64,000 bases of DNA, taken from Microbacterium atlanticum. Its GTDB lineage: Bacteria > Actinomycetota > Actinomycetes > Actinomycetales > Microbacteriaceae. Both the position numbers and the translations under genes were made by a program. Numbering within the stretch: position 1 is the stretch's first letter; each line of letters begins with the position of its first letter. Of this stretch, positions 24,836 through 48,012 are shown piece by piece. The DNA is taken from positions 2,666,001-2,730,000 of the forward strand of contig NZ_CP063813.1 of the NCBI RefSeq assembly GCF_015277815.1, written 5' to 3'. The notes beneath the pieces are model-generated. The model did no database searches and had not been told where the DNA came from. It was given only the letters and a program-made list of their open reading frames with translations.

Positions 24836-24878
24836 GTAGCAGGAGCGGGGCTTGAACCCGCGACCTCACGATTATGAG
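24836..24878 (-). other. tRNA 3'-half fragment; left attachment-site repeat of genomic island
   Basis: On the minus strand this reads from anticodon loop CTCATAA (anticodon CAU) through variable loop, a perfect T-arm (GCGGG TTCAAGC CCCGC), acceptor strand TCCTGCT and discriminator A. The 5' half is missing: the sequence to the right of 24878 does not pair with the acceptor or anticodon stem. The same 43 bases recur exactly at 47970-48012. Anticodon CAU means elongator Met or Ile2; which one cannot be decided from half a tRNA. Confidence 0.85.
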
Positions 24879-25282
24879 GACTGACCAGGGATTTTCTTCC
24901 GATCCGCTTGGACCCGCAACCCGCAGGATTCCGCGGAATCTGCGGTCACTCGAACCATGCGAATCAGCCTCGATCCCGACGGTTGGTGGGCAGGATGTGG
25001 GCACGTGCGGGTAGCCGACCACCCGGGGTGTGAAGCGGAGACGGAGGGATTTCAATTCTGCCGAGGGCGATCCGGGTCAATCAGTCTGACCTGTCTCAGC
25101 GGAGAACTCCCGCGATCACCCGGATCCCGGTCGGGGCCGTTGAACCATCTTCAGTTCTGACTGGGACGTGGACTCATCGTTGCCTCGGGACTCGCGGTCG
25201 GGCTCAGCCGGTTCAGGTGGCCATCCCAGCGTCTGAATCCCAGAGGCCGGCAGTCCTCGGTGCATCGGGCCGCCCCTGCGAG
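24879..25282. other. Non-coding left edge of the island
   Basis: About 400 bases between the tRNA fragment and the GH3 stop codon. Open frames here are short and without protein-like composition. No integrase remnant, promoter or repeat was recognised. Confidence 0.5.
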
Positions 25283-27685
25283 TCAGCTCGAGGTCACCGC
25301 GATCGCCGACAAGAATGTCCTTCCGGCGCTCGCCAGCGCGCGCCGGGGACCAATGACGTCGAGTACGGTCTCGAGGGGGCGCGACTCGGCATCAAAGCTC
25401 ACCCACACGTTCACCGGCGAGGGCTCAACGACGAACTCGCCTCCAATATCCGTGTACCCCAGTTGCGCAGCATCCAGCGTGAAGGTCACTTGGCGAGACT
25501 CCCCCGCCGCGAGCGAGACCCGGGCGAACCCCGCAAGTTGCTGCGCCGGGCGGGTCGCGCCGGCGGTGTTGACACGTGCGTAGAGCTGCACGACGGTATC
25601 GCCGCCACGGTCGCCCGCGTTGCGCACGGTCGCCGCGATCCGCGCTGATCCGCTGGTTGTCATCTCGGCATCCGCAACCAGATCTGACAGCTCGAACTCT
25701 GTGTAGCTCAGGCCGTGCCCGAAGGTGTACAGCGGGGTCGCCGGCATGTCGAGGTAGTGGCGGTCGACGTCGGGCGGCAGCGGGTTGCGGTAGCCGGTAC
25801 CGGACCGCTGGTGATGGTAGACCGGGATCTGGCCGGTGTGACGCGGGATGCTGTACGGCAGTTTTCCGCTCGGATTCACCTCCCCGAACAGAACGTCGGC
25901 GACGGCCGCCGGACCGAACGGCCCGCCGTACGACGACACGACGATCGCGGCAGCGTCCTGGACCACCTGCGGCAGTGTGTACGCGCGGCCTTGAACGAGC
26001 ACCGCGATGATCGGCTTGCCCGTCGCGGCAACGGCCTCCGCCAGGTGCACCTGCGCGGCGGGCAGCGAGATGTCGGCCGAGTCGCTCGCTTCACCCTCCG
26101 TGCGTTCCCCGTTGAACCACAGACTCGCCCCGCCGAGCGCCAGCACGACGACGTCCGCGGCCTCAGCCGCCGCTACCGCCTCGGCGATCGCTTCCGCGCC
26201 GAGGTCGGTCGTGAGCGTGCTGCCCGTCGCGACGTGCGTGATGGGTGCGTGTCGGCCGATCTCGTCGACGAGCGAGGTTGCGCCCAGCCGGTCGCGGACG
26301 AAGTCTTCGATGGGCGTCGAGGGGAACAGGCTGTTGTTCCAGGCGGCCATGCCCGGGTCGATCCCGACCATGTTGCCCATGCCCCCACCCGACATGAAGG
26401 TAGTCATGTCGCGGAACGCTGGGTAGCTGTAGGTGGGGAACTGCAGCTTCACCGCATCCGCGTGGGGCCCGATGATGGCAACGCTTTGGGCATCGGCGGC
26501 GAGCGGGAGCAGCCCGTCGTTCTTGACGAGCACGACCGAGCGGCGAGCAAGTTCGCGCGAGAGCTCACGCCCCTCAGACGCCACCTCGGCGATCTCGATG
26601 CGCTCCGCGGGGTACGGGTTCTCGAACAGCCCGAGACGGAACTTGGCGGTGAGGATGCGTCGGACCGAGCGGTCGACGTGGGCGATATCGACGCGTCCGG
26701 CTTCGACCTCGCCGACGAGCGCGTCGCCGTAGCCGTACGGGAAGGGGAACTCGGTGTCGAGTCCAGCGGCGATCGTGAGGCGACCAGCGTCGGCCGGCGA
26801 GGCGGCGGCTCGCTGGCGAGTGTGGATGTGCTCGAGGGTCATGTAGTCGCTGGAGACGAACCCGTCGAAGCCGAGGGTGTCGCGAAGCAGGGTCGTGAGC
26901 ACGTCGGGGTTCGCCGCAGCGGGGACTCCATCGACGTCGGAATAGGAGTTCATGACCGAGGCCAGGCCGGCCAGCTGGATCGCCGCCTCAAAGGGATAGG
27001 CGAAGAGGTCGCGAGTGCGACGAGGGCCGCCCTCGTAGGAAGAGAGGTTCATGCCGCCCGTCGGCAGGCCGTAGCCGACGAAGTGCTTCGCCGTGGCGAT
27101 CGCACCGGTACGTAGGTCGTCACCCTGAAGACCTCGGGTGTACGCGACGCTGAGCGCCGCGACCAGATAGGGGTCCTCACCGTAGGTCTCATGCACACGA
27201 CCCCAGCGCGGGTCCAGCGCAACATCCATGTTGGGCGACAGCGCCTGGCGTACGCCGACGCGGAGCAACTGCTTGCGGATGGTGTCTGCCATCTCCTGCA
27301 CGAGCTCGGGGCTCCAGGTCGCCGCGAGACCGATCGAGGTCGGGAAGACCATGTGCCCGCCGGCGAGCAGCCCGTTCAGGGCTTCGATGTGCACGAGGAG
27401 AGGGACGCCGAGCCGGGTGCCCTGGACCGCGGCATGTTGCAGGTCGCCGACGATTCGAGCCATCGTCGCGGGGTCATCGACGCCGAAGTTGCAGATGTGG
27501 CCAGGTGCCTTGTTCAGCCACTCGTCGCGCACGGTCGGGGCGCTGCCGTCAGCCAGCACCAGGTACCACGGCGGTACCGAGACAAGCTGGTGCGCCTTCT
27601 CACGCACCGTCATCTGGGCGAGGAGGAGGTCGGCGCGCTCGGTGTCGCTGAGGCTGGTGTCGAGGTGTGCGGAATCAGGGGACAT
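25283..27685 (-). CDS. Glycoside hydrolase family 3 beta-glycosidase (BglX-type)
   Basis: Probably intracellular, since no signal peptide is seen; 800 residues. The GH3 N-terminal barrel includes ALSPNMDVALDPRWGRVHETYGEDPYL (about 148-174) and AKHFVGYG (about 199-206). The catalytic nucleophile Asp is in GFDGFVSSDYMTLEH (D280). The alpha/beta sandwich follows, then a fibronectin-III-like C-terminus starting around YTEFELSDL. The family releases terminal beta-glucose or beta-xylose. The ATG, preceded by GGAGG, overlaps the end of the MFS gene by 11 bases, so the two form one operon controlled by the TTGCGCAA site upstream of the MFS gene. Confidence 0.93.
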   Translation of the reverse strand: MSPDSAHLDTSLSDTERADLLLAQMTVREKAHQLVSVPPWYLVLADGSAPTVRDEWLNKAPGHICNFGVDDPATMARIVGDLQHAAVQGTRLGVPLLVHIEALNGLLAGGHMVFPTSIGLAATWSPELVQEMADTIRKQLLRVGVRQALSPNMDVALDPRWGRVHETYGEDPYLVAALSVAYTRGLQGDDLRTGAIATAKHFVGYGLPTGGMNLSSYEGGPRRTRDLFAYPFEAAIQLAGLASVMNSYSDVDGVPAAANPDVLTTLLRDTLGFDGFVSSDYMTLEHIHTRQRAAASPADAGRLTIAAGLDTEFPFPYGYGDALVGEVEAGRVDIAHVDRSVRRILTAKFRLGLFENPYPAERIEIAEVASEGRELSRELARRSVVLVKNDGLLPLAADAQSVAIIGPHADAVKLQFPTYSYPAFRDMTTFMSGGGMGNMVGIDPGMAAWNNSLFPSTPIEDFVRDRLGATSLVDEIGRHAPITHVATGSTLTTDLGAEAIAEAVAAAEAADVVVLALGGASLWFNGERTEGEASDSADISLPAAQVHLAEAVAATGKPIIAVLVQGRAYTLPQVVQDAAAIVVSSYGGPFGPAAVADVLFGEVNPSGKLPYSIPRHTGQIPVYHHQRSGTGYRNPLPPDVDRHYLDMPATPLYTFGHGLSYTEFELSDLVADAEMTTSGSARIAATVRNAGDRGGDTVVQLYARVNTAGATRPAQQLAGFARVSLAAGESRQVTFTLDAAQLGYTDIGGEFVVEPSPVNVWVSFDAESRPLETVLDVIGPRRALASAGRTFLSAIAVTSS

Positions 27686-28988
27686 CGGGAACCTCCATGG
27701 GGCTCGAGGAAGGGTGCGGATCGGATGCGGGATCCGAGGATCTTGATGGGGACGTGAGAAGCAACAGGATCAATCCGGCGCCGGTGAGCAGAGCCGCCAC
27801 CCACGGCAGTGCCTCGAGTCCCCACTCGCCGACGACGAGAGCGCCGACCACAGCGCCGCCACCGATCGCGACATTGAAAGCGGTGGTCTGGAGCGCCGCC
27901 GCCGTCGAACGCTGCTGCGGCGGAGTGATTCGCATCATCCGGGTCTGCAGCAGGATCGGGACGACAGCGAAGGCCATCGCTTGCAAGAGCGCCGCGATCA
28001 CCAGCGGACCGACACCCCAGGCGGCTGAGAGCGGGAACAGCGCGCTCAGAACAGCTGCGAGCGCGATCCCGAGAAGGAGCGCGGTATTCGGCGATCGGTC
28101 TGCAATACGCCCGATGCCAGATACGGCGACAAATGCCGCAAGGCCCGTGCCGAAGAGGAACGCCGGGATCGACGCCGAAGGAATCGAGGCGACATCGCTC
28201 AGCCACACCACCGAGTAGGTGCCGTAGGTGGTCTGCCCGATCACGACGAGCAGGATGATCGCGCACACGAGCAGGATGCCGCCGATCGCCGATGGCGTCG
28301 AGTGGTTCCGCGTTGACGACGTGCGCGGGAGTGCCCGACTCGGCGCCACGGCCGGAAGGAGGAGCACCACGAGAAGCACCACGAGCACCGCGACCGCGGC
28401 CAGGGTTCCGAAGGCGACTCGCCAGCCGAACGCCTGACCCAGCGCGTTGCCGAGCGGGACTCCGAGCACGCCTGCGACCGAACCGCCTGCCGCGGTGATC
28501 GCAGTCGCTCTCCCGAGCTGCGAGGGTGCCACGAGATCGGCCGCGTATGCCGCGGCCACCGACCAGAACAGACCGTGCGCGACACCGCCTGACACCCGCG
28601 CGATGAGAAGCACCTCGAACGTGGGCGCGAAGGCAGCAAGACCCGTCGCGGCTGCGATTCCGATGAGCGCGACGATTGCGAGCGGCTTGCGCGGTACTCG
28701 CCGCGTGAGCACCGCGAGTGGCGCCGCGGTGAGGATGACTGCCCCGGCGAAGACGGTGATCAGCTGCCCAACGTCGGTGACCGGACGATCGAACGTCGCC
28801 GCGATGTTCGGCAACAGGCCACCGGGCAAGAACTCGGTCGACATCGAGACGAAGATGGCCGCCGCGAGCGCCAGGAGTCCACGCCGCGGGAACGGCGGGG
28901 CCGGATGCCTGGGCCTACTGCGCAGGACTCGATGGTGCCGAAGCCGTCGGTTCGCTGCACGTTTCGTGGCGCGACTATCGTGCGACAT
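27675..28988 (-). CDS. MFS transporter, DHA1 (AraJ-like) family
   Basis: Twelve-helix transporter of about 437 residues. After a basic N-terminus (about 1-32), the first helices carry STEFLPGGLLPNIAATF, the motif common to AraJ/sugar-efflux and drug-efflux DHA1 proteins, and VLTRRVPRKPL in loop 2-3. In this context it may import or export a sugar or glycoside. The ATG (MSHDSRATKR) is preferred over an ATG 105 bases upstream, which would place the operator region closer to the coding sequence. It shares a divergent promoter region with the GH2 gene. Confidence 0.85.
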   Translation of the reverse strand: MSHDSRATKRAANRRLRHHRVLRSRPRHPAPPFPRRGLLALAAAIFVSMSTEFLPGGLLPNIAATFDRPVTDVGQLITVFAGAVILTAAPLAVLTRRVPRKPLAIVALIGIAAATGLAAFAPTFEVLLIARVSGGVAHGLFWSVAAAYAADLVAPSQLGRATAITAAGGSVAGVLGVPLGNALGQAFGWRVAFGTLAAVAVLVVLLVVLLLPAVAPSRALPRTSSTRNHSTPSAIGGILLVCAIILLVVIGQTTYGTYSVVWLSDVASIPSASIPAFLFGTGLAAFVAVSGIGRIADRSPNTALLLGIALAAVLSALFPLSAAWGVGPLVIAALLQAMAFAVVPILLQTRMMRITPPQQRSTAAALQTTAFNVAIGGGAVVGALVVGEWGLEALPWVAALLTGAGLILLLLTSPSRSSDPASDPHPSSSPMEVPDVP

Positions 28989-29268: not shown

Positions 29269-31704
29269 ATGAGCAAGAACCTGTTCAATGACGACTGGAG
29301 TGTCCGCCGCAAGATCAGCGGCTTCGTCGATCTGATGGGCGGCGCAGCATCCAAGAAGGTCACGCTCCCCCACGATGCAATGATCGAGTTCGATCGGTCG
29401 GCAGACATCGCCGGAGGTGCGTCGTCCGCATTCTTCCCCGGCGGAGAGGTCGAGTACACGAAGCGTTTCCACGTTCCGCTCGAGTGGCGCGAGCAGCGGG
29501 TGACGATCGCGTTCGACGGGGTGTACCGCGACGCAATGGTCTACGTGAACGACGAGTTCGCGGGCCAGTGGAAGTACGGGTACAGCGTCTTTCGAGTCTC
29601 GCTCGACGCCCACCTTCGCTATGGCCAGGAGAACGTGGTGCGCGTGGAGGCCCGCGCGAACCAGGACTCGCGCTGGTACACCGGTCTCGGGATCTACCGC
29701 GATGTCCATCTCGTCGTCACGCCGCTGGCGCACATCGTGGACGACGAGATCCGAATCACCACACCGGACGTCGACGAGGAGTGCGCCGTCGTCGAGACCG
29801 CCGTGCTGATTCGGAATCAGAGCACCGGCACGCGTCGGCTGTCGCTTGAGGTGGAGGTGCACGACGCGGAAGGAACGGTCGTCGCGCACGAACGAGGGCC
29901 GGTCACGATTCGGCCGAATGCGACGACGACCGTACGCAATCGACTCTACGTCGACGCTCCCCGCCGCTGGGGCGTGGACGATCCGCACCTCTACGAATTC
30001 CGCGCCCGTCTGACCGACACCGAAGGCGACGACACGCACGACGTGAGCACTCCGTTCGGGATCCGTACGCTCCGTATCGATCCGCGGCACGGGCTCAGGA
30101 TCAACGACGAGCCGATCAAGCTTCGAGGCGCGTGCATCCATCACGACAACGGCCCGCTCGGCGCCGCCACGATCCAGCGCGCCGAGGAGCGGCGCATTGA
30201 GCTGTTGAAAGCGGCGGGCTTCAACGCCATCCGGAGTTCGCATTGCCCGGCGAGCCCGGCGATGCTCGACGCGTGCGACCGGCTCGGGGTCCTCGTGTTC
30301 GACGAGACGTTCGACGCGTGGACGGAGATGAACAAGGCGTACGACTACACGCTCGATTTCCCGGAGTGGTGGGAGCGCGACGTCGACGCGATGGTCAGGA
30401 AGGACTTCAACCACCCCAGCGTGATCTTGTACTGCATCGGCAACGAGATCCACGAGTACGGTTCGGGCTTCGGCGGCTCGATGGCGCGAGACATCGCCGA
30501 ACGGATCCGGCTCCGAGACGAGACACGGTTCATCACCACTGCCGTGAGCAGCTTCTGGGCGGTGGCCGGCGAGGTTATCGAAGACCTGAAGAACCGTCTC
30601 GCAGACGCCACCGCCCGGGGCGTCAACGACGTGATGAACGAGATGACCGAGTTCTTCGATGAGGTCACCGTCTCGGATGTGGTCACCGTGCGCACCGCGG
30701 AGTCTCACGGCGCGGCGGACATCGCCGGCCTGAACTATGCCGAAGCACGGTATGCGTCCGACGCCCGAGTCTTCCCCAACCGCGTCGTCCTCGGGACGGA
30801 AACCAACCCCCGGGTGACGGCCCAGTCGTGGGCAGAGACGATCGCACATGATCACGTGATCGGCGGGTTCACCTGGACCGGGTGGGACTACCTCGGCGAG
30901 GTCGGGCTCGGGCGCACGGATTACACGGATGACCCGGAGGTGCGCGGCGGCGGCGACCCCGAGTTCCCCTGGCTCACGGCGTGGGCGGGCGATCTCGACA
31001 TCACGGGGTTCCGCCGGCCCCAGTCGTACTATCGGGAGATCGTGTACGGCCTGCGGAAGGATCCGTACATCGCGGTGCTGAGGCCCCAGCATCACGGCCA
31101 GCGGCGGTTGGAGATGCAGTGGGCGTGGAGCGACGCGGTGTCGAGCTGGACGTGGGATCTCGCCGACGGAGCATCTACCGAGGTCGAGGTGTACAGCGAC
31201 GCCGATGAGGTCGAACTGATCTTGAATGGTCGATCACTCGCGCGGGCCGCGACCGGCGCCGCGCGGGAGTTCCGGGCGAGTTTCGACGTCCCTTACGAAC
31301 CGGGAGAACTCGTCGCGATCGCTTACCGCAACGGCGTCGCGAGCGAGCGCACGGCGCTGGTGACCGCATCCGACCGGCTCCTCGTCGCAAGGGCAGACCG
31401 TGCTCGCATCCGGTCGGATTTGAGCGACCTTGCGTACGTCAGCGTCGAGTTCCGCGACGGGAGCGATGTCTTGAACAGCTCGAAGGACGCGACCATCCAC
31501 GTGATGGTGGACGGCCCCGGCGACCTCGTCGCACTCGGCTCGGCGCGGCCAGCTACGGCGGAACGTTTCGACTCGACCAGCTGCATGACGTTCGACGGGC
31601 GCGCACTGGCCATCGTGCGGCCGACAGGCGAGGGGCAGATCACCGTCACCGTGCGCAGCGAAGGAACGGCCGATGCGCAAGCAGTGGTCGAGGCGGGCGC
31701 ATGA
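29269..31704 (+). CDS. Glycoside hydrolase family 2 enzyme with DUF4982 domain
   Basis: Cytosolic glycosidase of 811 residues. It has an N-terminal sugar-binding jelly roll (about 1-150, with VTIAFDGVYRDAMVYVN), an Ig-like domain, then the TIM barrel (PIKLRGACIHHDNGPLG onward). The acid/base Glu is in YCIGNEIHEYG (E393) and the nucleophile Glu in VVLGTETNPRV (E511). A DUF4982-like segment (WTWDLADGASTEVEVYSDADEVELILNG, about 655-685) and a C-terminal Ig-like domain follow. The group includes beta-galactosidases and beta-glucuronidases; the exact sugar is unresolved. The ATG with GGAG upstream is preferred over one 87 bases earlier in the tandem-repeat leader. Confidence 0.9.
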   Translation: MSKNLFNDDWSVRRKISGFVDLMGGAASKKVTLPHDAMIEFDRSADIAGGASSAFFPGGEVEYTKRFHVPLEWREQRVTIAFDGVYRDAMVYVNDEFAGQWKYGYSVFRVSLDAHLRYGQENVVRVEARANQDSRWYTGLGIYRDVHLVVTPLAHIVDDEIRITTPDVDEECAVVETAVLIRNQSTGTRRLSLEVEVHDAEGTVVAHERGPVTIRPNATTTVRNRLYVDAPRRWGVDDPHLYEFRARLTDTEGDDTHDVSTPFGIRTLRIDPRHGLRINDEPIKLRGACIHHDNGPLGAATIQRAEERRIELLKAAGFNAIRSSHCPASPAMLDACDRLGVLVFDETFDAWTEMNKAYDYTLDFPEWWERDVDAMVRKDFNHPSVILYCIGNEIHEYGSGFGGSMARDIAERIRLRDETRFITTAVSSFWAVAGEVIEDLKNRLADATARGVNDVMNEMTEFFDEVTVSDVVTVRTAESHGAADIAGLNYAEARYASDARVFPNRVVLGTETNPRVTAQSWAETIAHDHVIGGFTWTGWDYLGEVGLGRTDYTDDPEVRGGGDPEFPWLTAWAGDLDITGFRRPQSYYREIVYGLRKDPYIAVLRPQHHGQRRLEMQWAWSDAVSSWTWDLADGASTEVEVYSDADEVELILNGRSLARAATGAAREFRASFDVPYEPGELVAIAYRNGVASERTALVTASDRLLVARADRARIRSDLSDLAYVSVEFRDGSDVLNSSKDATIHVMVDGPGDLVALGSARPATAERFDSTSCMTFDGRALAIVRPTGEGQITVTVRSEGTADAQAVVEAGA

Positions 31705-31767
31705 CAACGGTCTCGCCCCCTGCCATCCCCGCAGAAGAGGCCACTCGCGGGGCCAACGCGGCCTAGG

Positions 31768-32874
31768 TGTGATGTCCAGGGACGTTGTTGCGTGAATCGC
31801 GTGTGATCTGCTGACGGGCGAAGGCCTCCCGTTGCGAGAGTGGAGCTGTCTAGGAACCGCTCACGCATCACAGGAGGCCTTCGTTGTCCCACGCTAACGC
31901 TGCTCTGACCCCGCGCGCTCGTCTGCGGCTGGCCAAGCTCATCGTCGAGGAGCATTGGCCGGTCGCCGTCGCGGCGAAGATGTTCATGACCTCACCGCCG
32001 ACGGCGCGCAAGTGGGCGGCCCGGTTCCGGGCCGAAGGGCCCGCGGGAATGATTGACCGGTCCAGCCGGCCGCGCTCGATGCCGACCAAGACGCCGCCCG
32101 CGACAGTGAAACGGATCGTGCGGTTGCGGTGGCGTCGGCGGCTGGGGCCGGTGCAGATCGCCGGCGAGCTCGGCGTTCCCGCCTCAACGGTGCATGCGGT
32201 GCTGGTGCGGGCCCGGATCAACCGGCTCAGCCACATCGACCGGGTCACCGGCGAGCCGATCCGCCGCTACGAACACGACCATCCCGGATCCCTGATCCAC
32301 GTCGACGTCACCAAGTTCGGCAACATCCCCGACGGCGGCGGCTGGCGCTACGTCGGCAAGCAGCAAGGCAAGAAGAACAAGCAGCGCGCCGCCCGCGCCG
32401 GCGCCGGATACACCGAGAAAGGGCATCCCAACATCGGCACCGCGTTCCTGCACACCGTCATCGACGACCACTCCCGCGTCGCCTACGTCGAGATCTGCAG
32501 CGATGAGCGCGCCGTCACCGCGATCGGCGTGCTCGAACGCGCGGTCGCATGGTTCGCTGACCGCGGCGTCACCGTCGAGCGAGTCTTGTCCGACAACGGA
32601 TCGGCCTATCGCTCCCACGCCTGGAAAGACGCCTGCGCCATGCTCGGCATCCGACACAAACGGACCCGCCCCTACCGCCCGCAGACGAACGGGAAGATAG
32701 AACGCTTCCATCGCACCCTCGCCGACGGCTGGGCCTATGCCCGCTTCTACCCCTCAGACACCGAGCGTCGCGCCGCGCTGCCCGGCTGGCTGCACTTCTA
32801 CAATCAGCACAGGCGCCACTCCGCCATCGGAGCCCCACCCTTCAGCAGACTCAACAACCTGCCTGGACATCACA
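31768..32874 (+). mobile_element. IS481-family insertion sequence, complete
   Basis: An 1107-bp element with terminal inverted repeats TGTGATGTCCAGG...TTGTTG (left, 31768 on) and CAACAA...CCTGGACATCACA (right, to 32874). It is flanked by a 6-bp direct repeat CCTAGG (31762-31767 and 32875-32880), matching the NCTAGN target preference known for IS481. It is inserted in the intergenic space between the GH2 gene and the convergent DUF5605 hydrolase gene, so it disrupts no recognised gene. Intact ends and open frame suggest recent or still-active transposition. Confidence 0.9.
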
Positions 32875-32879
32875 CCTAG
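31884..32879 (+). CDS. IS481-family transposase (DDE)
   Basis: 331 residues. An N-terminal HTH region (LTPRARLRLAKLIVEEHWPVAVAAKMF, then a second HTH about 70-105) leads to the rve/DDE core. The catalytic acids are in IHVDVTKFG (first Asp), RVLSDNGSAYRS (second Asp) and TNGKIERFHRTLADGW (Glu). Translation starts at TTG with CAGGAGGCC upstream. The stop codon TAG (32877-32879) is not part of the element but comes from the duplicated CCTAGG target, a known IS481 arrangement. Confidence 0.93.
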   Translation: MSHANAALTPRARLRLAKLIVEEHWPVAVAAKMFMTSPPTARKWAARFRAEGPAGMIDRSSRPRSMPTKTPPATVKRIVRLRWRRRLGPVQIAGELGVPASTVHAVLVRARINRLSHIDRVTGEPIRRYEHDHPGSLIHVDVTKFGNIPDGGGWRYVGKQQGKKNKQRAARAGAGYTEKGHPNIGTAFLHTVIDDHSRVAYVEICSDERAVTAIGVLERAVAWFADRGVTVERVLSDNGSAYRSHAWKDACAMLGIRHKRTRPYRPQTNGKIERFHRTLADGWAYARFYPSDTERRAALPGWLHFYNQHRRHSAIGAPPFSRLNNLPGHHT

Positions 32880-32969
32880 GCCCGCGAAGACCGGCCAATG
32901 CCGCGCACACTGTCAGACGTTTCTGGCGCTGGGGGCGGGTCCTCGCGCGGATCCGCCCCAGGCTCAGGC

Positions 32970-39778: not shown

Positions 39779-39797
39779 TGCTGGGGCTCACCGGGTC

Positions 39798-41327
39798 CTA
39801 GTTCTTCTGGAAGTCCCGCAGCAGCGGGTGCAGCGCGGAGAAGTCCGACATCGTGGGGATGCTGATGTCCGGGCTGTAGAGGTAGAAGCCGTCCGGGTAG
39901 GCCATCGGCACGAACCACGCCTGGTCGATCACGTACTGGTTGATCTCCTGCTGAGCCGCGATCCGCTCCTCATCGGTGCCGGTCAGGATGGTCTGCCACA
40001 GGGCGTCGACGGTCTCGTCCGGCTGGTGCGACACGTTCCAGATGCCGTCCGGCAGGATGTAGTCCTTGATGTCCTGCAGCGACTCACCGTAGTTGCCCAG
40101 CTGCCACAGCGGCACCGGGTAGGTTCCGCTCAGCAGCTCGGTGATCGCGTCGGGACCGGTCAGGTTCACCTGCTCGACGGTGATGTTGAGCTGGGCGAGC
40201 TGCTCGGTCACGTAGGGGAAGAGCAGCTCGTGGTTCTGGCCTTCGAAGAACGGGATCTGCAGGGTGAATCCGTCCGCGTAGCCCGCTTCGGCCATCAGGG
40301 CCTTGGCTGCTTCCACGTCGTACGGGTAGGGGTCTTCGGTGAGGTCCTCGAGGTAGGCGCTGCTGCCCGGGCGGAAGATCTGGTACGCCGGGTCGGCGTA
40401 GCCGCGGTAAAGGTCGTTCGCGATCGAGTCGCGGTCGAACACCATGTTCATGGCCTGTCGCACGCGGACGTCACCGAGCGCCGGGATCTTCTCACCGTTG
40501 TGGTCGGTGATGAGGAGGCGGGTGGTGGTGCCGCGGAGGGTAACGGCCTCCAGGTCGGACTTCTTGGCTTCGTCGATCGTCGCCGCGCTGCCGAGGATGC
40601 CGTCGATCTGTCCGGTCTTGAGCGCGTTGAGGCCGGCGGTCGCGTCCGTGAAGACCTTCAGCACGAGCGTCTCGTACGGGTAGGTGTCGCTGTCGAAGTA
40701 GTCCGGGTTCTTGGTGAGGGTGTACGTGGAGCCCTGCGTGCTCTTGCTGGGCTCGTAGATGTACGGGCCGCTGCCGACGACCGTCGTGTCCTGCGCATCG
40801 CCGGCGTAGTACTCGGCGGAGGAGATCTGCGCCTCGCACAGGATGAGGTCGAGCGTCGGGGTGGGCTGCGGCCAGGTGATCGTCATGTTGTAGTCGTCGA
40901 CGACGTCGAAGGTCAGGTCCGCGAAACGAGCGTTGTTCTCACCGGCGAACTCGTATGCAGCCTGCACGTCTTCGGTCGTGAGGTCCGTTCCGTCGGAGAA
41001 CTTGATGTCCTCGCGGAGCTTGAGCGTCGCGGCGCTCTTGTCGTCGTTGTACTCCCACTCCTCGGCGATCTGCGCGGAAGGCTTTCCGAACTCGTCGCAG
41101 ATGAGAAGCGTGTCCCAGGCGGCGTCGGCGAACCAGCCCTGGTAGCTGGGCTGGATGCCGACACTGAGGCCGGGGATGTCGGCGGTCATGCCGAGGGTGA
41201 GCGTGTCACCTGCTGCGCCGGTGGCCGATCCGCCTCCGGTGGAGGGGGCGCAGGCCGTCAGCGCAAGCCCCAGGGCGAGCGCGGGCACCGCGAAGGCGAC
41301 GGCTGTGCGGCGTCGTGTGAATCGCAT
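39798..41327 (-). CDS. Extracellular solute-binding protein, family 5 (lipoprotein)
   Basis: 509 residues. Lipoprotein signal peptide: basic RRRT, hydrophobic core, then LTACAPS, with the lipid-attached Cys at about residue 26. The mature protein has the SBP_bac_5 fold: IAEEWEYNDDKSAATLKLREDIKFSDG (about 90-116) and GSGPYIYEPSK. It captures the ligand for the peptide-type importer encoded downstream. The ATG has AAGGAG 5-6 bases upstream. The twin TTGCGCAA operators lie about 130-160 bases upstream, inside the 3' end of the neighbouring rhamnosidase gene. Confidence 0.94.
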   Translation of the reverse strand: MRFTRRRTAVAFAVPALALGLALTACAPSTGGGSATGAAGDTLTLGMTADIPGLSVGIQPSYQGWFADAAWDTLLICDEFGKPSAQIAEEWEYNDDKSAATLKLREDIKFSDGTDLTTEDVQAAYEFAGENNARFADLTFDVVDDYNMTITWPQPTPTLDLILCEAQISSAEYYAGDAQDTTVVGSGPYIYEPSKSTQGSTYTLTKNPDYFDSDTYPYETLVLKVFTDATAGLNALKTGQIDGILGSAATIDEAKKSDLEAVTLRGTTTRLLITDHNGEKIPALGDVRVRQAMNMVFDRDSIANDLYRGYADPAYQIFRPGSSAYLEDLTEDPYPYDVEAAKALMAEAGYADGFTLQIPFFEGQNHELLFPYVTEQLAQLNITVEQVNLTGPDAITELLSGTYPVPLWQLGNYGESLQDIKDYILPDGIWNVSHQPDETVDALWQTILTGTDEERIAAQQEINQYVIDQAWFVPMAYPDGFYLYSPDISIPTMSDFSALHPLLRDFQKN

Positions 41328-41454: not shown

Positions 41455-44280
41455 TTATTGCGCAATTGCTCCGGTTATATTGCGCAACAGGTCGGGCGCG
41501 GGGCCGACGAGATCGGCCAGCGCCCGCTTCGCGGAGTCGGACGGCCAGAATCTCGTCCACACCGCGTCGCCGATCTCGGTGGCTGGGCGGTCGAAGAACG
41601 GTGCAAGCAGCCGGGCCATCCGCACATCGGAGTCGATGACGCCCTCAGCGGCGGAAACCGAAACGAGTTGCGACCACAACGCCTCGTCGTCGACGACGTC
41701 GCGAACCGTCTGCGGCGCGACCTCCGTGAACCCCGGTTCCGTGAGACGCCACTCGTGGCGTCCGTGACCGATCTGTACGGACCCGCCGCCCCACGGCAGC
41801 TCGACGACGCCCGTCGTGCCCACAGGAAGTTCGACCTCCAGAGCCCACTCCCCCGCCTCTCGTGACCACGCGACGCTGGCCATCCCGTAGGGCGTACGGT
41901 GGCTGGCCGCGGCACGTGTGAGCGCGCGAGGCGGGATGGGACGCACCGCGACCGTCCGGAATCCTGGGCTCGTCGATCCCAGACCGGCGACGCGCCGATG
42001 GAGCCAGTCGATCACGCTGCCGAGTGCATAGTGGTTGAACGAGGTCATGCCGCTCGGGTTCACGGTTCCGTCGGGAAGCAGGCTGTCCCATCGCTCCCAG
42101 ATCGTGGTGGCGCCCATCGTCACGGGGTACAGCCAGGACGGCGCCTGGGTCTGCAGCAGCAGGCGATGCGCGACATCGTGGCGGCCGGCATCCGTAAGCG
42201 CATCGCACACGATGGGCGTGCCGACGAATCCGGTGGCGATGCGATGGCCCGACGCACGCACGAGGTCGGCGAGTCGATCCGCCGCCCTTTCGCGCGTTGT
42301 CGGATCGTCGATCAGACCCCAGTTGAGCGCCAGCGCGTACACCGTCTGCGCGTCGGAGAGCACGCGCCCGGAAGCCGTGACGAACTCTCGCCGAAACGCT
42401 TCCCGGATCCGCGCAGCGAGGTCTGAATACTCTGCCGCGATGTCGTCGTCGCCGACCACGTCGGCGGCCGATGCGACGATCTGCGCCGAACGTGCGAAGT
42501 GTGCGGTGGCGACGACGTCGGGATCCGCCCTGGCCAGCGAGGCGTCGTCATGCGGAGCGGTCGGATCCAGCCAGTCCCCGTACTGGGCACCTCCACGCCA
42601 GATGAGGTCGGCGCCCGCCTCGGCACGCACACAGTCGACCCACGCCCGCATGCTGGGAAGTTGCCGCTCGAGAATCACTCGGTCTCCGGTGCGCTCCCAC
42701 ACCGTCCAGGGCACGATCGTCGCCGCATCGCCCCACGCCGCAGCGGGCGCCGATGTGAGATCAGTGCGAAGGATGTCGGGCACGACGTGCGGAACCCGCC
42801 CCTGCGCATCCTGCTCGGCTGCCAGATCGGCGAGCCACGACGTCAGGAATCCGGCGGAGTCGAACAGGAATGTCGCCGTCGGCGCGAAAATCTGGATGTC
42901 GCCTGTCCAGCCCAGTCGCTCGTCTCGCTGCGGACAGTCGGTCGGGACGTCGAGGAAGTTCCCGCGCATCCCCCATACGACGTTCTCGTGGAAACGGTCG
43001 AGGAGCGCGTGGGACGACGTGAACCACCCCGTTCGCTCGAGGTCGCTGCCGATGACGACTGCCTCGATGTCCTTCGCGCGGAGGTCCTCCAGGCCCGCGA
43101 CCTCGGCATACCGGAACCCGTGGAACGTCAGGGACGGTTCCAGCGACTCGGCATCCGATCCGCTCAGGAAGTAGGTGTCCGTGGCCTTTGCGCTGCGAAG
43201 TGCTTCCACCGCGAGCTCGCCATGCTCGAGCACCTCGGCGTGCCGCACCACCACCTCATCACCGGGCTGGGCGCCGCACGCCTTGATGCGCACCCAGCCG
43301 ACGACGTTCTGACCGAAATCGACCAGGACACGACCGGTTGGCGACCGCGTCACTGACACCGCGGGGATCACTTCTGTCACTCGCATCGGGGGCCCGTCCT
43401 CGCCCACCAGCGTTGCGAGGTCGGCATCGATCGGCTCAACGGCGTGAGCGAATGGCGCGTCAGGCTCGAATCGAAGGTCCGTCGTCTGCCCGTCGTATAT
43501 GTCGTCGATCAGGATGCCGGTCGCGCGAGCTCGCCATCGTCCGTCGGTGCCCAGCACGTGGACGGCCCCGTCGCCGGTGGTGACCTCGAGTTGGGCCAGC
43601 GCCGCGAGCCGATCACCGTATAGAGCCCGCTTTCCGAGGAAACCGAATCGCCCGCGCCACCAACCGTTGCCGAGCGTGATGTCCAGGGTGTTGTCGCCGG
43701 CTTTCACGAGCCCCGTGACGTCGTACACCCTGGTGCGGAGGCGGTGTTCGTAGGCGGTCCATCCGGGTGCGAGCACCGTGTCATCGACTGGGGCGCCGTT
43801 GATCGTTGCGGTGTAGATGCCGTGCGCGGTCGCGTACAGGCGAGCCTTGACGACGCGCGAATCGACGTGAAGGGTCCCCCGCAACTCCGGTGCCGCCTGC
43901 CGGAGGGCGCCGATGCCGACGGGCGAGATGAAACGTGCATCCCAGTCGTCTGCATCGAACAGACCGGCTTCGACCGTCGCAGGCTCGCTCCAGTCACTCC
44001 ACTCCGGGCCGCGAACTCGCACTCGCACGGTTGCCGCCTCACGCGAGTGGAGTGGCAGATCGGGCCACGGCACCAAGATCTGCTCTGCCGACTCCACCAC
44101 CCACCGCTCGGTCGTGAGGCCGCGTGCGACTTCGATCTCGTAAGCCGTCTGCACGTACTCGTCCGGGGCGGTGGCGATCGTCCAACTCAGCCGGGGAGAC
44201 GGGGAGGCGATACCCAGCACAGGACCACGATCGGTGCGGTGTTCGAATCGGAGTGCGGCAGGTGGGGTGAGTTCGGCCAT
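41455..44280 (-). CDS. Glycoside hydrolase family 78 alpha-L-rhamnosidase
   Basis: 941 residues, no signal peptide. N-terminal beta-sandwich domains (Bac_rhamnosid_N; GIYTATINGAPVDDTVLAPGWTAY about 156-180) precede the catalytic (alpha/alpha)6 barrel. The conserved acidic stretch is FLDVPTDCPQRDERLGWTGDIQIF (about 472-495), followed by WRGGAQYGDWLDP and a late Glu in MGATTIWERWDS. The enzyme removes terminal alpha-L-rhamnose from plant glycosides or rhamnogalacturonan fragments. The ATG is divergent from the LacI gene with two operators between them. Its last codons contain the operator pair of the downstream importer operon. Confidence 0.93.
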   Translation of the reverse strand: MAELTPPAALRFEHRTDRGPVLGIASPSPRLSWTIATAPDEYVQTAYEIEVARGLTTERWVVESAEQILVPWPDLPLHSREAATVRVRVRGPEWSDWSEPATVEAGLFDADDWDARFISPVGIGALRQAAPELRGTLHVDSRVVKARLYATAHGIYTATINGAPVDDTVLAPGWTAYEHRLRTRVYDVTGLVKAGDNTLDITLGNGWWRGRFGFLGKRALYGDRLAALAQLEVTTGDGAVHVLGTDGRWRARATGILIDDIYDGQTTDLRFEPDAPFAHAVEPIDADLATLVGEDGPPMRVTEVIPAVSVTRSPTGRVLVDFGQNVVGWVRIKACGAQPGDEVVVRHAEVLEHGELAVEALRSAKATDTYFLSGSDAESLEPSLTFHGFRYAEVAGLEDLRAKDIEAVVIGSDLERTGWFTSSHALLDRFHENVVWGMRGNFLDVPTDCPQRDERLGWTGDIQIFAPTATFLFDSAGFLTSWLADLAAEQDAQGRVPHVVPDILRTDLTSAPAAAWGDAATIVPWTVWERTGDRVILERQLPSMRAWVDCVRAEAGADLIWRGGAQYGDWLDPTAPHDDASLARADPDVVATAHFARSAQIVASAADVVGDDDIAAEYSDLAARIREAFRREFVTASGRVLSDAQTVYALALNWGLIDDPTTRERAADRLADLVRASGHRIATGFVGTPIVCDALTDAGRHDVAHRLLLQTQAPSWLYPVTMGATTIWERWDSLLPDGTVNPSGMTSFNHYALGSVIDWLHRRVAGLGSTSPGFRTVAVRPIPPRALTRAAASHRTPYGMASVAWSREAGEWALEVELPVGTTGVVELPWGGGSVQIGHGRHEWRLTEPGFTEVAPQTVRDVVDDEALWSQLVSVSAAEGVIDSDVRMARLLAPFFDRPATEIGDAVWTRFWPSDSAKRALADLVGPAPDLLRNITGAIAQ
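41458..41487. promoter_or_regulatory. Twin TTGCGCAA operators of the importer operon
   Basis: Exact sites at 41458-41465 (in ATTGCGCAAT) and 41480-41487, spaced 22 bases, about two helical turns, so that two dimers or a tetramer could bind on one face. They overlap the 3' end of the rhamnosidase gene and precede the binding-protein gene. Confidence 0.78.
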
Positions 44281-44362
44281 GGGTGTCTCCTGAGGGAGCC
44301 GGACGGGTGGCGACGCGAGCCTAGGCCGGGCCGAAAGGGCCGACAAGGCCACCAGGGGACAT

Positions 44363-44450
44363 TTGCGCAAATATGCTGCGGTCCACTCGCTGAGCTACAC
44401 GGAGCGCATCCGATCGCGCTACCCTGCAGCGCAGACGCGATATTGCGCAA
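44363..44450. promoter_or_regulatory. Two TTGCGCAA operators in the GH78/lacI divergent promoter
   Basis: Exact sites at 44363-44370 (ATTTGCGCAAAT) and 44443-44450 (TATTGCGCAAG), 80 bases apart. One is nearer the rhamnosidase start (44280), the other 18 bases from the lacI start (44468). This suggests autorepression plus control of GH78, possibly through a loop. Confidence 0.78.
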
Positions 44451-44467
44451 GCACGCAGGGGGGGCGA

Positions 44468-45484
44468 ATGGGCGAGGCACCGACACCGACCGTGACGATG
44501 CGAGCGGTCGCCGAAGCTGCGGGGGTCTCGGTTGCCACGGCCTCGCGCGCCCTGGCCGGCCGCGGCGATCTGAGCCGCGAGACACGCGAGCGCGTTGCAG
44601 ATGCGGCACGTTCTCTGGGTTACGAGCGCTCCCAGTCGACGCGGGGGCGACCGACGACACTGGACCCACGGCTGATCGAGTTCGTGCTCGGCAGCTTCGA
44701 CGACGCCTGGACCGATGCCATGACGACAGGTGCGCGTGAAGCTGCCTTCCGTCTCGGTTTCGATCTGGTGCTCACGCTCGACCGTCCCGATCCGTCAGAC
44801 GATTGGCCGACCCGGGTCGCGACGCGGCGCCCGTCGGGAGTCGTCATCGGCATCATCAAGCCCACGGCAAGCCAGCTGGAGGAGATCCGCGGGCTCCGCA
44901 TTCCGATCGTGCTGCTCGATCCTCGGTCCGATCCGGAAGGCGAACTGGCCAGTGTCGGCACGACGGACTGGCAAGGAGGCTACGACGCCGGCGCGCATCT
45001 CGCGAACTGCGACGTGGATCGATTCGCCGTCGTCACCGGTGTGCCTCGCTACCGCTTCGGTCGTGCGCGCGAAGAAGGCTTCCGGCAGGCCATCGCCGAG
45101 CTCCGTCCCGACGCCGAGGTGGTCCACGTCGATTCGCAATGGACGGACGCACCTTTGACCGCCGATCTCATGAAGCTCGTGACGTCGGACAAGTCGCATG
45201 TCGGCGTCTTCGCCTGCAACGATGAGATGGCCCTCGCGGTGTACCGCGCGGCGGCTCGCGCGGGCAAGCGGATACCCGACGACGTGAGCGTGGTCGGATT
45301 CAATGACGAACCGCGGGCCGCTGCAGCTCGGCCGCCACTCACCAGCGTGCATCAACCGCTGCGCGAGATGGCGACACGGGCGATCGAGCTCACCCAGGAG
45401 CTGCGCCGTCACGACGACCCGGCCCACGAGCGCATCGAGTTGCCGTGCACGCTCGTGGTGCGCGGCTCGACTCGCTCGCGCTGA
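44468..45484 (+). CDS. LacI-family transcriptional regulator of the island
   Basis: 338 residues. The HTH is at about 10-55 (VTMRAVAEAAGVSVATASRAL, hinge-side ERVADAARSLGYE). The periplasmic-binding-like effector domain includes GVVIGIIKPTASQLEEI and the late VSVVGFNDEPRAAAARPPLTSVHQPLREMATRAIEL. The ATG is preceded by a G-rich site; an open frame 105 bases upstream begins inside an operator and is rejected. Two TTGCGCAA sites in its own promoter and four more at the other operons make it the likely regulator of the whole glycan locus, with an imported sugar as inducer. Confidence 0.93.
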   Translation: MGEAPTPTVTMRAVAEAAGVSVATASRALAGRGDLSRETRERVADAARSLGYERSQSTRGRPTTLDPRLIEFVLGSFDDAWTDAMTTGAREAAFRLGFDLVLTLDRPDPSDDWPTRVATRRPSGVVIGIIKPTASQLEEIRGLRIPIVLLDPRSDPEGELASVGTTDWQGGYDAGAHLANCDVDRFAVVTGVPRYRFGRAREEGFRQAIAELRPDAEVVHVDSQWTDAPLTADLMKLVTSDKSHVGVFACNDEMALAVYRAAARAGKRIPDDVSVVGFNDEPRAAAARPPLTSVHQPLREMATRAIELTQELRRHDDPAHERIELPCTLVVRGSTRSR

Positions 45485-45497
45485 GTCGCACCCGGGT

Positions 45498-45534
45498 GCC
45501 GGACGGATGCCGCAGCTCGCGGCATCCGTCCGGC
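45498..45534. terminator. Strong bidirectional terminator
   Basis: Perfect 16-bp stem GCCGGACGGATGCCGC/GCGGCATCCGTCCGGC with loop AGCTC between the convergent lacI gene and the PKD-domain genes. Confidence 0.8.
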
Positions 45535-45540
45535 CGTCGG

Positions 45541-45771
45541 CTACTGCGTGACCACGACTCGGATGCGGTCGATGTTCTGGAGTAGCGCGTACTTGGCGCC
45601 GACGTTGCCGTCACGCTCCGCCGTCACGCGTACGCTGACGAAGTACGTCCCGGGCTGGGTGAACGTGTGCTTCGTCGTGAGTGCGACAATCGGCTGCGGC
45701 TTGCGGGCATCGCCGGCGACGTAGGTGCCGTCGCTTTCGGAGTCCCACTCCGCGGCGATGATCTGGCCCAC
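45541..45771 (-). pseudogene. Duplicated C-terminal PKD-domain fragment
   Basis: A 76-residue frame whose translation (IIAAEWDSESDGTYVAGDA..., ending IDRIRVVVTQ) repeats, at roughly three-quarters identity, the last ~75 residues of the next gene on the same strand. It starts 12 bases after that gene's stop codon, has no convincing ribosome binding site, and lacks a signal peptide or any other domain. It is most easily read as a relic of a tandem duplication or of a second, deleted paralogue. Confidence 0.75.
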
Positions 45772-45783
45772 CCGCCCGATGCC

Positions 45784-47634
45784 TTACTGCGTCACGACCA
45801 CGCGCACGCGGTCGATGTTCTGCACGCGGGCGAAACCGGCATTGACATCACCGTTGCGCTCGGCCGTGACCCGCACGCTCACGAAGTAGGTGCCCGGCTG
45901 CGTGAACCGATGCGTCGTCGCCAGCGCCGCGATCTTCTGCGGCTTGCCCGCATTCCCCGCGACGTACGTGCCATCACCTTCGAAGTCCCACTCCGCAGCG
46001 ACGATCTTCCCCCCGCCGAGCGGCGCACGCGCTGCCGCGAGCAGCGCGACCGGCTTGCCCACCCGCGTCGTGATCACGCCGTCGCGGAGCGTCACGAAGT
46101 CCACGGTCGGCTGGATGCCGGCGCGCACCAGGGCGAACGGCGAGACGACGATCTGCGAGTCCTTGATCTCGTAGCGGGTGGACACGGGCGCCGCGACCCC
46201 CTTCTCCGCCCATGCGGCGACGTCGCGCAGCGCCTGTTCGACACTGCCGTACCAGTCGACCAGCGTCGCCGCGCGTGCTCCGGTCGGCGCAGCGTCCTGG
46301 TGGTCGGCATGATCTGTGTAATACACCCGGTAGGCGTTGCCGGCGGCGGCGCCGAGGCTGGACTCGACCTTCTTCCGATACCAGTCGGTGTGGATCGGAA
46401 GAGCGTCGACGTCGTAGAGGTTCGACACAACGATCATCTTGCCGTTGATCGAACCGTCGAAGGCGGCGTTGCCCGACACCGCGCCCGAGAACCCGGGCTC
46501 CCCCACCGTACGCTGCGGATAGAGCGGGGTACCGTCCGCGGCGCGGAACTGGTCGAGAGCGATCCACCCGGTGCCGGCCGCTGGGAGCTGATACCGGTAC
46601 GCGAACCGCTTGGCGATGTTCCAGCGGTGGCCGATCGTGTCCCCCATTTCGACGAGTTCGGCCCGCACCCGCTCGCCGAGCGGGGAGTCTTCAGCGCCGA
46701 GGTAGCCAGCGGTGTTCCAGAAGTCGTCGACGAAGGTGGGATCATAGACGAGCGGGTCGTCGGAGTCGAGCCCGCCGCCGAAGTAGGCGGGGTCGTAGCC
46801 GAGCAGGTAGTCGGGGTTCTCCCATCCCTTCCACGGGATGCCGAGCTTGTGCACCTCCGTGAGCATCGCGCGCTCCGCCTCATCGAGAGTGGCATAGGGG
46901 TCGCCGCTGCCCCCGGGCAGCAGCGCGTCGCGGATCTCGTCGGCCTTGTCGGCGAGGATGAGCTCGGCCGCCGCACGCCCGTTGAAGTTGTAACTGTTCG
47001 GCGTCGGCACGGCCTGCACCAACGGAACGAAACCCTGCCACACCCCGTCCGTGTTCTCGGCTGCGCCGACCGTCTGGAACGAGCCGCCGCTGGGGCCGTA
47101 CAGGTACCCGAAGATGGCGCGATCGCTGCCGTAGTAGGCCGCGGCCACGGTCTCGGCGAACTTCGCCGCTGCGGCGGTGTGGCGGTAGCCCAGCGACAGG
47201 AACCCGTTTCCGGCCTGCACCGCGTACCCGCCGCTGGCGAGCGCGAAGCCGATGGCGCGATCGCTTGCGCGAGAGGTGTTCTGGTCGGCGCTGAAGGTTG
47301 TCGGGTAGGTGTACTGGAAGAACCGACCCTGCCACTTCGACTTGTCGGCTGCGGGGTGCAGGTAGATGTTGAACGTGATGTTCGTGCCCTCGAAGTGACC
47401 CGACACCCGGTGATGCGGAACGGGCGTCGTCTCGTCCGTCTCGGCATCGATCACAGGCTGGGTGTATGTCGGATCGATGCAGTCCGCGGTCACCTGCATC
47501 GGCGCATTGGGGGCGGGCTGCACGCACGCGACAGGTTCGGCCGCGGCTGGCAGAGCGGGCAGGAGCGCGACGGTCAGCGCGAGCACGGCGCTCGCAGCGA
47601 TGGGCCCGGGACGGGCGAAAGATGGTCGTGCCAT
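45784..47634 (-). CDS. Secreted alpha/beta-hydrolase-like protein with C-terminal PKD domain
   Basis: 616 residues. The signal peptide (about 1-32, ending LPAAAEP) points to secretion. The central region resembles tannase/feruloyl-esterase-like hydrolases: a nucleophile-elbow candidate G-P-S-G-G (S182) after AIFGYLYG, a late Asp in VVSNLYDVDALPIHTDWYR, and His in YYTDHADHQD that could complete a triad. The last ~75 residues form a PKD-type Ig domain (AAEWDFEGDGTYVAG...THRFTQPGTYFVSVRVTAE). It may release acyl groups or process plant polymers outside the cell before import. It is controlled by a TTGCGCAA site 136 bases upstream. The enzyme class is an inference. Confidence 0.78.
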   Translation of the reverse strand: MARPSFARPGPIAASAVLALTVALLPALPAAAEPVACVQPAPNAPMQVTADCIDPTYTQPVIDAETDETTPVPHHRVSGHFEGTNITFNIYLHPAADKSKWQGRFFQYTYPTTFSADQNTSRASDRAIGFALASGGYAVQAGNGFLSLGYRHTAAAAKFAETVAAAYYGSDRAIFGYLYGPSGGSFQTVGAAENTDGVWQGFVPLVQAVPTPNSYNFNGRAAAELILADKADEIRDALLPGGSGDPYATLDEAERAMLTEVHKLGIPWKGWENPDYLLGYDPAYFGGGLDSDDPLVYDPTFVDDFWNTAGYLGAEDSPLGERVRAELVEMGDTIGHRWNIAKRFAYRYQLPAAGTGWIALDQFRAADGTPLYPQRTVGEPGFSGAVSGNAAFDGSINGKMIVVSNLYDVDALPIHTDWYRKKVESSLGAAAGNAYRVYYTDHADHQDAAPTGARAATLVDWYGSVEQALRDVAAWAEKGVAAPVSTRYEIKDSQIVVSPFALVRAGIQPTVDFVTLRDGVITTRVGKPVALLAAARAPLGGGKIVAAEWDFEGDGTYVAGNAGKPQKIAALATTHRFTQPGTYFVSVRVTAERNGDVNAGFARVQNIDRVRVVVTQ

Positions 47635-47769
47635 GGGGAGTCCTCCAGCTTCGTTGATGGTGAGCCCGCGGCCTCGCGAGCGCCCGCCAGCCGGGCGCTC
47701 ACAGCGCCCGAGCGGCAGCGACTGACGCTAGACCGACACGATCTCGACTGGCAATCGAGGAAGCTCATA

Positions 47770-47777
47770 TTGCGCAA
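47770..47777. promoter_or_regulatory. TTGCGCAA operator of the secreted hydrolase gene
   Basis: Context CTCATATTGCGCAAGG, 136 bases upstream of the start at 47634. Sixth copy of the island operator. Confidence 0.73.
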
Positions 47778-47939
47778 GGTTCTCGGGCTGGCCGCACGAG
47801 CGGCGCCCGAACCCGCGTCATTCCCGAGCGCGAGCCTGGGCACCCAGACCTCAGTGTGAACTATCGTGAGGTCAGAATCGGTGGGCAAAGGTGGGCAGAA
47901 GGCGCTTTCCGAAAGCATCCGCCCGCACCGATGCAACGC

Positions 47940-47966
47940 AAAAAGCCCGGATTACCGGGCCTTTTG
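47940..47966 (-). terminator. Rho-independent terminator following the right tRNA fragment
   Basis: On the minus strand: AAAAG-GCCCGG-taat-CCGGGC-TTTTTG, a classical stem with a T-run, placed directly downstream of the tRNA 3' fragment at 47970-48012. Confidence 0.85.
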
Positions 47967-47969
47967 TCT

Positions 47970-48012
47970 GTAGCAGGAGCGGGGCTTGAACCCGCGACCT
48001 CACGATTATGAG
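47970..48012 (-). other. tRNA 3'-half fragment; right attachment-site repeat of genomic island
   Basis: Exact copy of the 43 bases at 24836-24878: CAU anticodon loop, T-arm and 3' acceptor strand. Beyond the anticodon loop the sequence (CTCGG on the 5' side) does not form a proper anticodon stem with TCGTG, and no 5' acceptor strand AGCAGGA follows, so this copy is also incomplete. CCA is not encoded. Confidence 0.85.

Follow-up and report, generated by a model that had tools for sequence, protein, structure and literature searches.

A plant-glycan island without an integrase and a second, larger integrative element, very probably accreted in one tRNA-Met(CAU) gene of Microbacterium atlanticum

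The window analysed here is a stretch of 64,000 nucleotides from Microbacterium atlanticum (G000:C1:2666001-2730000, G000 being the strain's own genome, a single 3.71-Mb contig). It holds E1, a 23.1-kb segment (window 24836-47969) with glycosidase and transport genes, and the beginning of E2, a segment of 229.6 kb that runs from 48013 to genome position 2943608. Two copies of a 43-base core bound E1; read on the minus strand, the core is the 3′ strand of tRNA-Met(CAU) from the anticodon loop to the acceptor end. A preliminary description, made from the letters of the window alone, had noticed these copies, identical, in the same orientation, each beside a different hairpin and neither with a 5′ tRNA half, and all of this is confirmed for both. 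Where, then, is the complete gene? The description expected it to the right, and ARAGORN finds an intact tRNA-Met(CAU) there, at genome 2943566-2943640, ending with the same 43 bases, 229.6 kb to the right of the second window copy and neighboured by a tRNA-Thr(GGT) gene. ARAGORN reports no tRNA in the window, and no intact gene at either copy; Rfam at gathering scores gives no match in the window, in a kind of search that half tRNAs escape. Is the 43-mer a generic repeat? With up to three mismatches allowed over the 3.71 Mb it occurs three times, always exactly (window 24836, window 47970 and genome 2943566), with no copy on the other strand and none for a reversed-pattern control, and so few copies rule a generic repeat out. 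A 20-base piece of it, again with at most three mismatches, matches the window at both core sites only (0.01 expected). No further core was found within E2 when 25-base tRNA pieces, taken every 6 bases, were searched with up to four mismatches over 324 kb.

The outer cores coincide approximately with steps in base composition: E1 and E2 have a GC of 0.669 and 0.667, the DNA before the first core has 0.715 and that beyond the tRNA 0.711. Twenty relatives were fetched around their tRNA-Met and the 20-kb stretch beside the tRNA was examined for genes of the left flank. Seven of them (G049, G065, G028, G051, G018, G031 and G067) have genes of the left flank no more than 20 kb away from tRNA-Met and g264, with E1 and E2 absent; this synteny was not seen in the other 13. 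In G049, 3.3 kb separate g027-g037 from tRNA-Met, tRNA-Thr and g264, and the 20-kb stretch contains one core. The chromosomal flanks are thus close to each other in relatives, and here 252.8 kb is inserted between them. In some of the seven the tRNA is adjoined by as much as about 13 kb of other DNA, and a virtual empty site was matched in all 118 genomes searched (own included), mostly via the tRNA side. The arrangement in G049 also identifies 11.3-22.8 kb of the window as chromosome, and an island reaching left of 24836 was set aside on the same grounds. The assignment of 22.9-24.6 kb to chromosome or island is uncertain; at E 1e-10, none of the 20 regions from relatives contains a counterpart of its genes g038 and g039. 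The hairpin left of the first core is taken as the original chromosomal one because many relatives have a similar, terminator-like hairpin next to their tRNA-Met. Farther out in the left-flank chromosome, window 5326-7522 is dense with direct and inverted repeats around CGCCAAGACACGCCG, plus a 42-bp tandem.

E1 itself has the anatomy of an element bounded by attachment sites (attL and attR): in sequence terms it has cores at both ends and paired arm-like sites like those of relatives that bear an integrase. Which relatives are these? The left junction of E1, GATTATGAG followed by GACTGACC, is found exactly in four of 366 genomes, namely our own, G019, G062 and G408, over 27 bases of which 19 are core and 8 lie beyond; with three mismatches it is also found in G369 and G043. 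G019, G408 and G062 have an integrase, here called Int-B, directly inside the intact tRNA-Met. The core-to-core distance is 58.8 kb in G019 and 136 kb in G408, and the cores of G062 are on two contigs. Int-B is 91% identical between G019 and G408 and 99.5% between G062 and G408, and it shares 27-28% identity with the integrase of E2. The three elements have pairs of the motif GTGGGCA at +114/+125 on the left and at -92/-81 on the right (G019 has a third site at -102), and E1 has such pairs at corresponding places at both ends. Across the 324-kb region, both strands included, the end pairs of E1 are the only GTGGGCA pairs at a spacing of 2-5 bases; 30 first-order simulated sequences contain none. 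Among 19 genomes (own included; G408 represented by end pieces) such pairs were found only in our own E1, G019 and G408, in each case at the element ends. The Int-B elements also have a terminator-like hairpin at their integrase end.

Does E1 then contain an integrase of its own? All 14 of its called genes were scanned against Pfam, and no integrase, relaxase or type IV secretion system (T4SS) protein was found. There is no PF00589 protein and no detectable Int-B remnant in E1 (best E 0.34). The preliminary description saw no integrase at all, which stands for E1 and fails for the second element, whose integrase lies at the far right end, outside the window. Could another integrase of the same genome serve E1? 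The nearest Int-B relatives in the own genome match the 183-residue C-terminal query at 54% identity over 162 residues and 47% over 179, and adjoin a tRNA-Arg and a tmRNA. None of the six integrase loci examined contains a GTGGGCA pair, with at most one GTGGGCA per strand, and this candidate was rejected on both counts. As no close Int-B gene was found in the genome, E1 is probably stranded there. By its anatomy E1 resembles a cis-mobilizable element (CIME) whose cognate integrase seems to be other than that of its neighbour. As a separate observation, at G000:C1:1422014-1422544 (near L019) an integrase relative lies beside the tmRNA, and the match of the Int-B query there includes one TAG.

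E2, for its part, looks like an integrative and conjugative element (ICE) that may be able to transfer itself, judging by its predicted genes. Its tyrosine integrase (Int-A, PF00589, genome 2941970-2943157) stands against the intact tRNA-Met, together with a small HTH_17 gene that resembles an excisionase gene in size and position. A transfer region, about 29-53 kb from the left end of E2, has genes for a relaxase, an ArdC-like protein, a primase-polymerase, a ParB-like protein, an M23 peptidase, an SCO6880-family protein, a VirB4-like ATPase and a TraG/VirD4-like coupling protein. The MobF relaxase scores 239 bits with NF041492 (cut-off 100) and has the TrwC domain PF08751; the SCO6880-family protein is above its NCBIfam cut-off. 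The coupling protein exceeds the Pfam cut-offs of PF12696 and PF02534 and is below the NCBIfam cut-off as VirD4-like, and the VirB4-like ATPase (NF045971, E 6.5e-17) is likewise below its cut-off; both are 72-93% conserved in three other elements. These three are single elements at the same tRNA-Met, each with an intact and a displaced copy, in G152 (M. flavescens, 74.7 kb), G225 (157 kb) and G045 (128.5 kb). They share most of the E2 block g082-g104 at 52-94% protein identity, with 68-78% for the integrase, and g084-g087 are matched in G152 alone of the three. An identity as an actinomycete integrative and conjugative element (AICE) was rejected: none of the six PF01580 (FtsK/SpoIIIE-family) matches in the genome falls between 2690836 and 2943608. 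About 40 of the 210 called genes of E2 were scanned against Pfam, and the catabolic cargo in this sample comprises GH127 and GH2 glycoside hydrolases (GH), sugar-binding proteins, a melibiase, a KatG-type peroxidase, a molybdopterin oxidoreductase, a Rieske oxygenase and a thiamine pyrophosphate (TPP) enzyme. A Hachiman pair, HamA-HamB, is also found in E2, left of the transfer region (G000 2735179-2738123; L005:5179-8123).

The integrase of E2 is associated with tRNA-Met. Relatives of the E2 integrase were collected at 32 loci, 28 of which were scanned for tRNAs: tRNA-Met adjoins 18, tRNA-Lys or tRNA-Thr two, one has a tRNA-Thr with a fragment match only, and seven have no tRNA in the examined stretch. 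The motif TGATCAGGGTTTCTTG lies 11-14 bases from the tRNA in 17 of the tRNA-Met loci, with at most three mismatches in 16 and five in L079; the comparison left out the 18th, L072, whose integrase is 47% identical. Of 2000 segments drawn at random from the own region, none has the motif at up to four mismatches. On the other side, E2, G152, G225 and G045 have a related motif, TGACCAG or a variant, at +60. The left core of E1 is identical to that of E2, yet this Int-A arm-like site at +60 is absent from the left end of E1. In G047 (G047:C1:1412235-1415556) an Int-A relative near tRNA-Met is in two pieces with about 2.1 kb between them, perhaps split by an insertion.

The genes of E1 are collected in Table 1, and their content suggests the use of pectin-type side-chain sugars. 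The preliminary description called everything between the cores accessory carbohydrate metabolism; the glycan genes agree with this, and an IS481-like transposase and two open reading frames (ORFs) with PKD domains do not. The longer PKD-domain protein is placed near the position that the integrase takes in Int-B elements. Eight E1 genes have protein matches of 47-74% within the Int-A element of G045, and none matches the G019 element at the thresholds used (G408 was compared by two end pieces), so the cargo does not follow the ends. Is this cargo part of the stable core genome? The DNA search scored one candidate stretch per genome, with 27 genomes unscored, among them G019, G045, G062 and G408. 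Of the 338 other genomes scored, 63 match an 8-kb block with importer and rhamnosidase in part, G127 best with 77% over 5 kb, and none matches it over its full length, which speaks against this part of E1 being core.

Table 1. Features of E1 and of the adjoining part of E2 (window positions; GH, glycoside hydrolase; MFS, major facilitator superfamily)
Feature	Position	Strand	Remark
Hairpin, tRNA 3′ side of core copy 1	24807..24828	-	
Core copy 1, displaced 3′ half of tRNA-Met(CAU)	24836..24878	-	left boundary of E1 and of the entire 252.8-kb array
Left junction GACTGACC, Int-B type	24879..24886	+	as in G019, G062, G408
Left arm-like pair GTGGGCA-n4-GTGGGCA	24986..25003	+	+114/+125, as in Int-B elements
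GH3 glycosidase	25283..27685	-	
MFS transporter	27675..28844	-	
GH2 glycosidase	29269..31704	+	
IS481-like insertion sequence	31760..32882	+	transposase 31884-32879; 34-nt inverted repeats, 91% complementary
Apiosidase-like glycosidase (DUF5060/DUF5605)	32970..34703	-	
GH43 glycosidase	34719..36164	-	
Oligopeptide-type ABC importer, 4 genes	36239..41327	-	ATPase, fused permease-ATPase, permease, solute-binding protein
Alpha-L-rhamnosidase (Bac_rhamnosid domains)	41455..44220	-	
LacI-family regulator	44363..45484	+	
Short PKD-domain ORF	45541..45771	-	
PKD-domain protein	45784..47586	-	final called gene of E1
Right arm-like pair GTGGGCA-n3-GTGGGCA	47881..47897	+	-90/-80; Int-B elements -92/-81
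Hairpin at E1 right end, tRNA 3′ side of core copy 2	47940..47965	-	
Core copy 2, E1/E2 boundary	47970..48012	-	exact 43-mer
Left 16 kb of E2	48013..64000	.	LacI, GH127, solute-binding protein, GH2, transporters
Left arm-like site of E2, TGACCAGCGATTCCTTG, Int-A type	48066..48082	+	as in G152 (M. flavescens) element

How did two such segments come to share one gene? Very probably, two unrelated integrative elements accreted site-specifically in a single Microbacterium tRNA-Met(CAU) gene; the tandem array proposed in the preliminary description draws its support from the position of the intact tRNA, the relatives without E1 and E2 and the ICE-like second segment. In a first step, an element of the Int-B family would have entered the 3′ half of tRNA-Met and left the displaced 3′ half at 24836. 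As the anatomy suggests, this element would then have lost its integrase and any transfer genes while keeping both ends, and E1 would be what is left, a CIME-like, 23-kb plant-glycan island between attL and attR. In a third step, to judge by the order of the segments, the Int-A ICE E2 would have entered the tRNA that the first insertion had restored on the right, which would have moved E1 away from the intact gene and produced the middle core at 47970. E1 comes first and E2 second because the element nearest the intact tRNA enters last, which is a rule of tRNA integration and not a dating. The order also fits a three-step model of integration, decay to a CIME and new integration set out in passages of PMC5704250.

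Several points weigh against this history. The loss of an integrase from E1 is something we infer, since no pseudogene is left, and the role of the arm-like sites is likewise deduced from their conservation. At the right end, the two sites of E1 stand closer together by 1 base than those of the Int-B elements, and the pair lies 1-2 bases nearer the core. The cargo gives no link to the Int-B family, its matches lying in an Int-A element, and TGACCAGGG, similar to the Int-A arm motif, sits right at the core on the left end of E1. As for E2, its VirB4-like and VirD4-like proteins are below their NCBIfam cut-offs, G045 has no matches for g084-g087 and g099, and the left core of E2 equals the tRNA over 43 bases where the displaced cores of G152, G225 and G045 diverge at least 4 bases earlier.

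Could E1 and E2 instead be one composite, with Int-A recombining the leftmost core with the intact tRNA and so moving all 252.8 kb? This would make E1 an ordinary CIME served by its neighbour, and we consider it unlikely. It has in its favour the identity of the three cores over 43 bp, the TGACCAGGG that adjoins the left core of E1, and the related Int-A element of G045 that carries similar glycan genes at this tRNA; co-transfer of a CIME with an ICE is reported for other systems in passages of PMC5704250, and co-transfer of this type is proposed for Streptomyces AICEs in parts of PMC9513070. However, the left end of E1 lacks the TGACCAG-type site at +60 that E2, G152, G225 and G045 have, it bears the Int-B pair at +114/+125, and TGACCAGGG is common to the Int-B element of G019, for which reason we read it as part of the Int-B junction. 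The suspicion, raised by TGACCAGGG, that the family of E2 serves E1 was dropped once the same junction was seen in Int-B elements. A much less probable account would have E1 as native or donor chromosome that acquired its bounding cores either by homologous exchange or by travelling with E2 as a chromosomal flank. The terminator-like hairpin at its right end does resemble those beside tRNA-Met in relatives, and no integrase or transfer gene was found in it, but Int-B elements have such a hairpin at the integrase end as well, paired GTGGGCA at both ends in the positions of the family is unexpected in a chromosome, and the left junction is exact over 27 bases with G019, G062 and G408. That the tRNA pieces are a misjoin or a repeat collapse is hardly credible: two units in G011, 43,859 bp each and 100% identical, could be such an artefact there, but here the flanks differ on both sides of every core, as do the arm sets, GC steps fall at about the outer cores, and single elements of the same families occur in several other genomes.

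If accretion of two unrelated elements is the right account, what is E1 now? With end sites of two integrase families in E1 and E2, it becomes less likely that E1 is helped by its neighbour and more likely that an Int-B element coming in would help it. A tentative reading, which we think rather doubtful, is that E1 is an orphan island with ends legible only to Int-B integrases, which its own genome lacks. Equally tentatively, E1 may be waiting for an incoming Int-B element such as those of G019, G062 and G408, while the resident Int-A ICE could neither excise nor lose it. Were this reading true, cargo would move between integrase families by way of a common tRNA parking place.

How unusual is such an array in the genus? 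A 36-base core, at up to three mismatches, is matched in 332 of 366 genomes. Two or more copies occur in 45 (own included), some of them on separate contigs, and three or more in four: G000, G011, G312 and G369. The cores stand in a row on one contig in G000, in G011 (three of four) and in G369; a tandem is not shown in G312, as its three cores are on three different contigs. The tandem in the tRNA-Met of G369 (G369:C1:209756-221987; L226) consists of a 7.1-kb unit at the tRNA with an integrase match and a distal unit of 5.0 kb. That genome has three PF00589 matches, of which the array contains just one, within the tRNA-proximal unit, and the distal unit seems to be without an integrase too. 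In G011 (G011:C1:1379-89132; L193, L227-L230) the two identical units lie head to tail at tRNA-Met; either a tandem duplication took place very recently or the assembly produced the repeat. Displaced cores in the genus are also followed by other left-junction types (TTAGAT.., GCGTGTAC.. and GGTCACCTG..), and these further junctions suggest that more integrase families use tRNA-Met. Tandems at this gene are thus rare in the genus and not unique to our strain. Among the papers listed in literature searches, none describes, to judge by title and abstract opening, such tRNA-Met elements or a hotspot in Microbacterium.

The Microbacterium tRNA-Met emerges as an integration hotspot that collects plant-glycan genes and ICE-like elements of 75-230 kb. 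Most interesting is how cleanly the ends of an island lacking an integrase point here to a family different from that of its neighbour: arm-like end sites may reveal, from sequence alone, the integrase family that built such an island.

How does this array compare with known systems? ICESt1/ICESt3 and the CIMEs of Streptococcus thermophilus are reportedly the subject of work by Pavlovic in 2004 and Bellanger in 2011. In streptococci the CIME and its mobilising ICE are related to each other, whereas the ends of E1 and E2 are of different integrase families, and the array described here is much larger than the streptococcal CIME-ICE. Phylum and target gene differ as well. Accretion, CIMEs and mixed integrase families at one site are already described, as passages of four papers indicate (PMC5704250, PMC9513070, PMC3146451, PMC10711302). 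As E1 seems to be, the S. thermophilus CIME is a decayed element between attL and attR that lacks integrase and transfer genes and stands in tandem with an ICE in the same gene. The ssrA islands of Dehalococcoides also form arrays with and without an integration module, bounded by repeats of an RNA-gene 3′ end and containing metabolic genes, but they use a serine recombinase and ssrA as target, and sections of the source have its authors calling them mobilizable and not conjugating (PMC3146451). At a tRNA-Arg of Streptomyces, AICEs and DAICEs of several integrase families are stacked in one tRNA, with a repeat-bounded remnant; those elements are marked by traB, whereas the array here has no FtsK/SpoIIIE-family match and E2 has a relaxase and T4SS-like genes (comparison with parts of PMC9513070). 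The Streptomyces toxigenic region, TR1 plus TR2, and the 660-kb region of S. turgidiscabies resemble our array as tandems of an actinobacterial cargo island and a neighbouring ICE in one target gene, and an internal att site is described for S. turgidiscabies (PMC10711302). The target genes there are aviX1 or bacA, the cargo is for phytotoxin synthesis, and TR2 is said to be able to transmit TR1 (PMC10711302); in contrast, the cargo of E1 is for glycan use, and the arm sites of its neighbour E2 are not those of E1.

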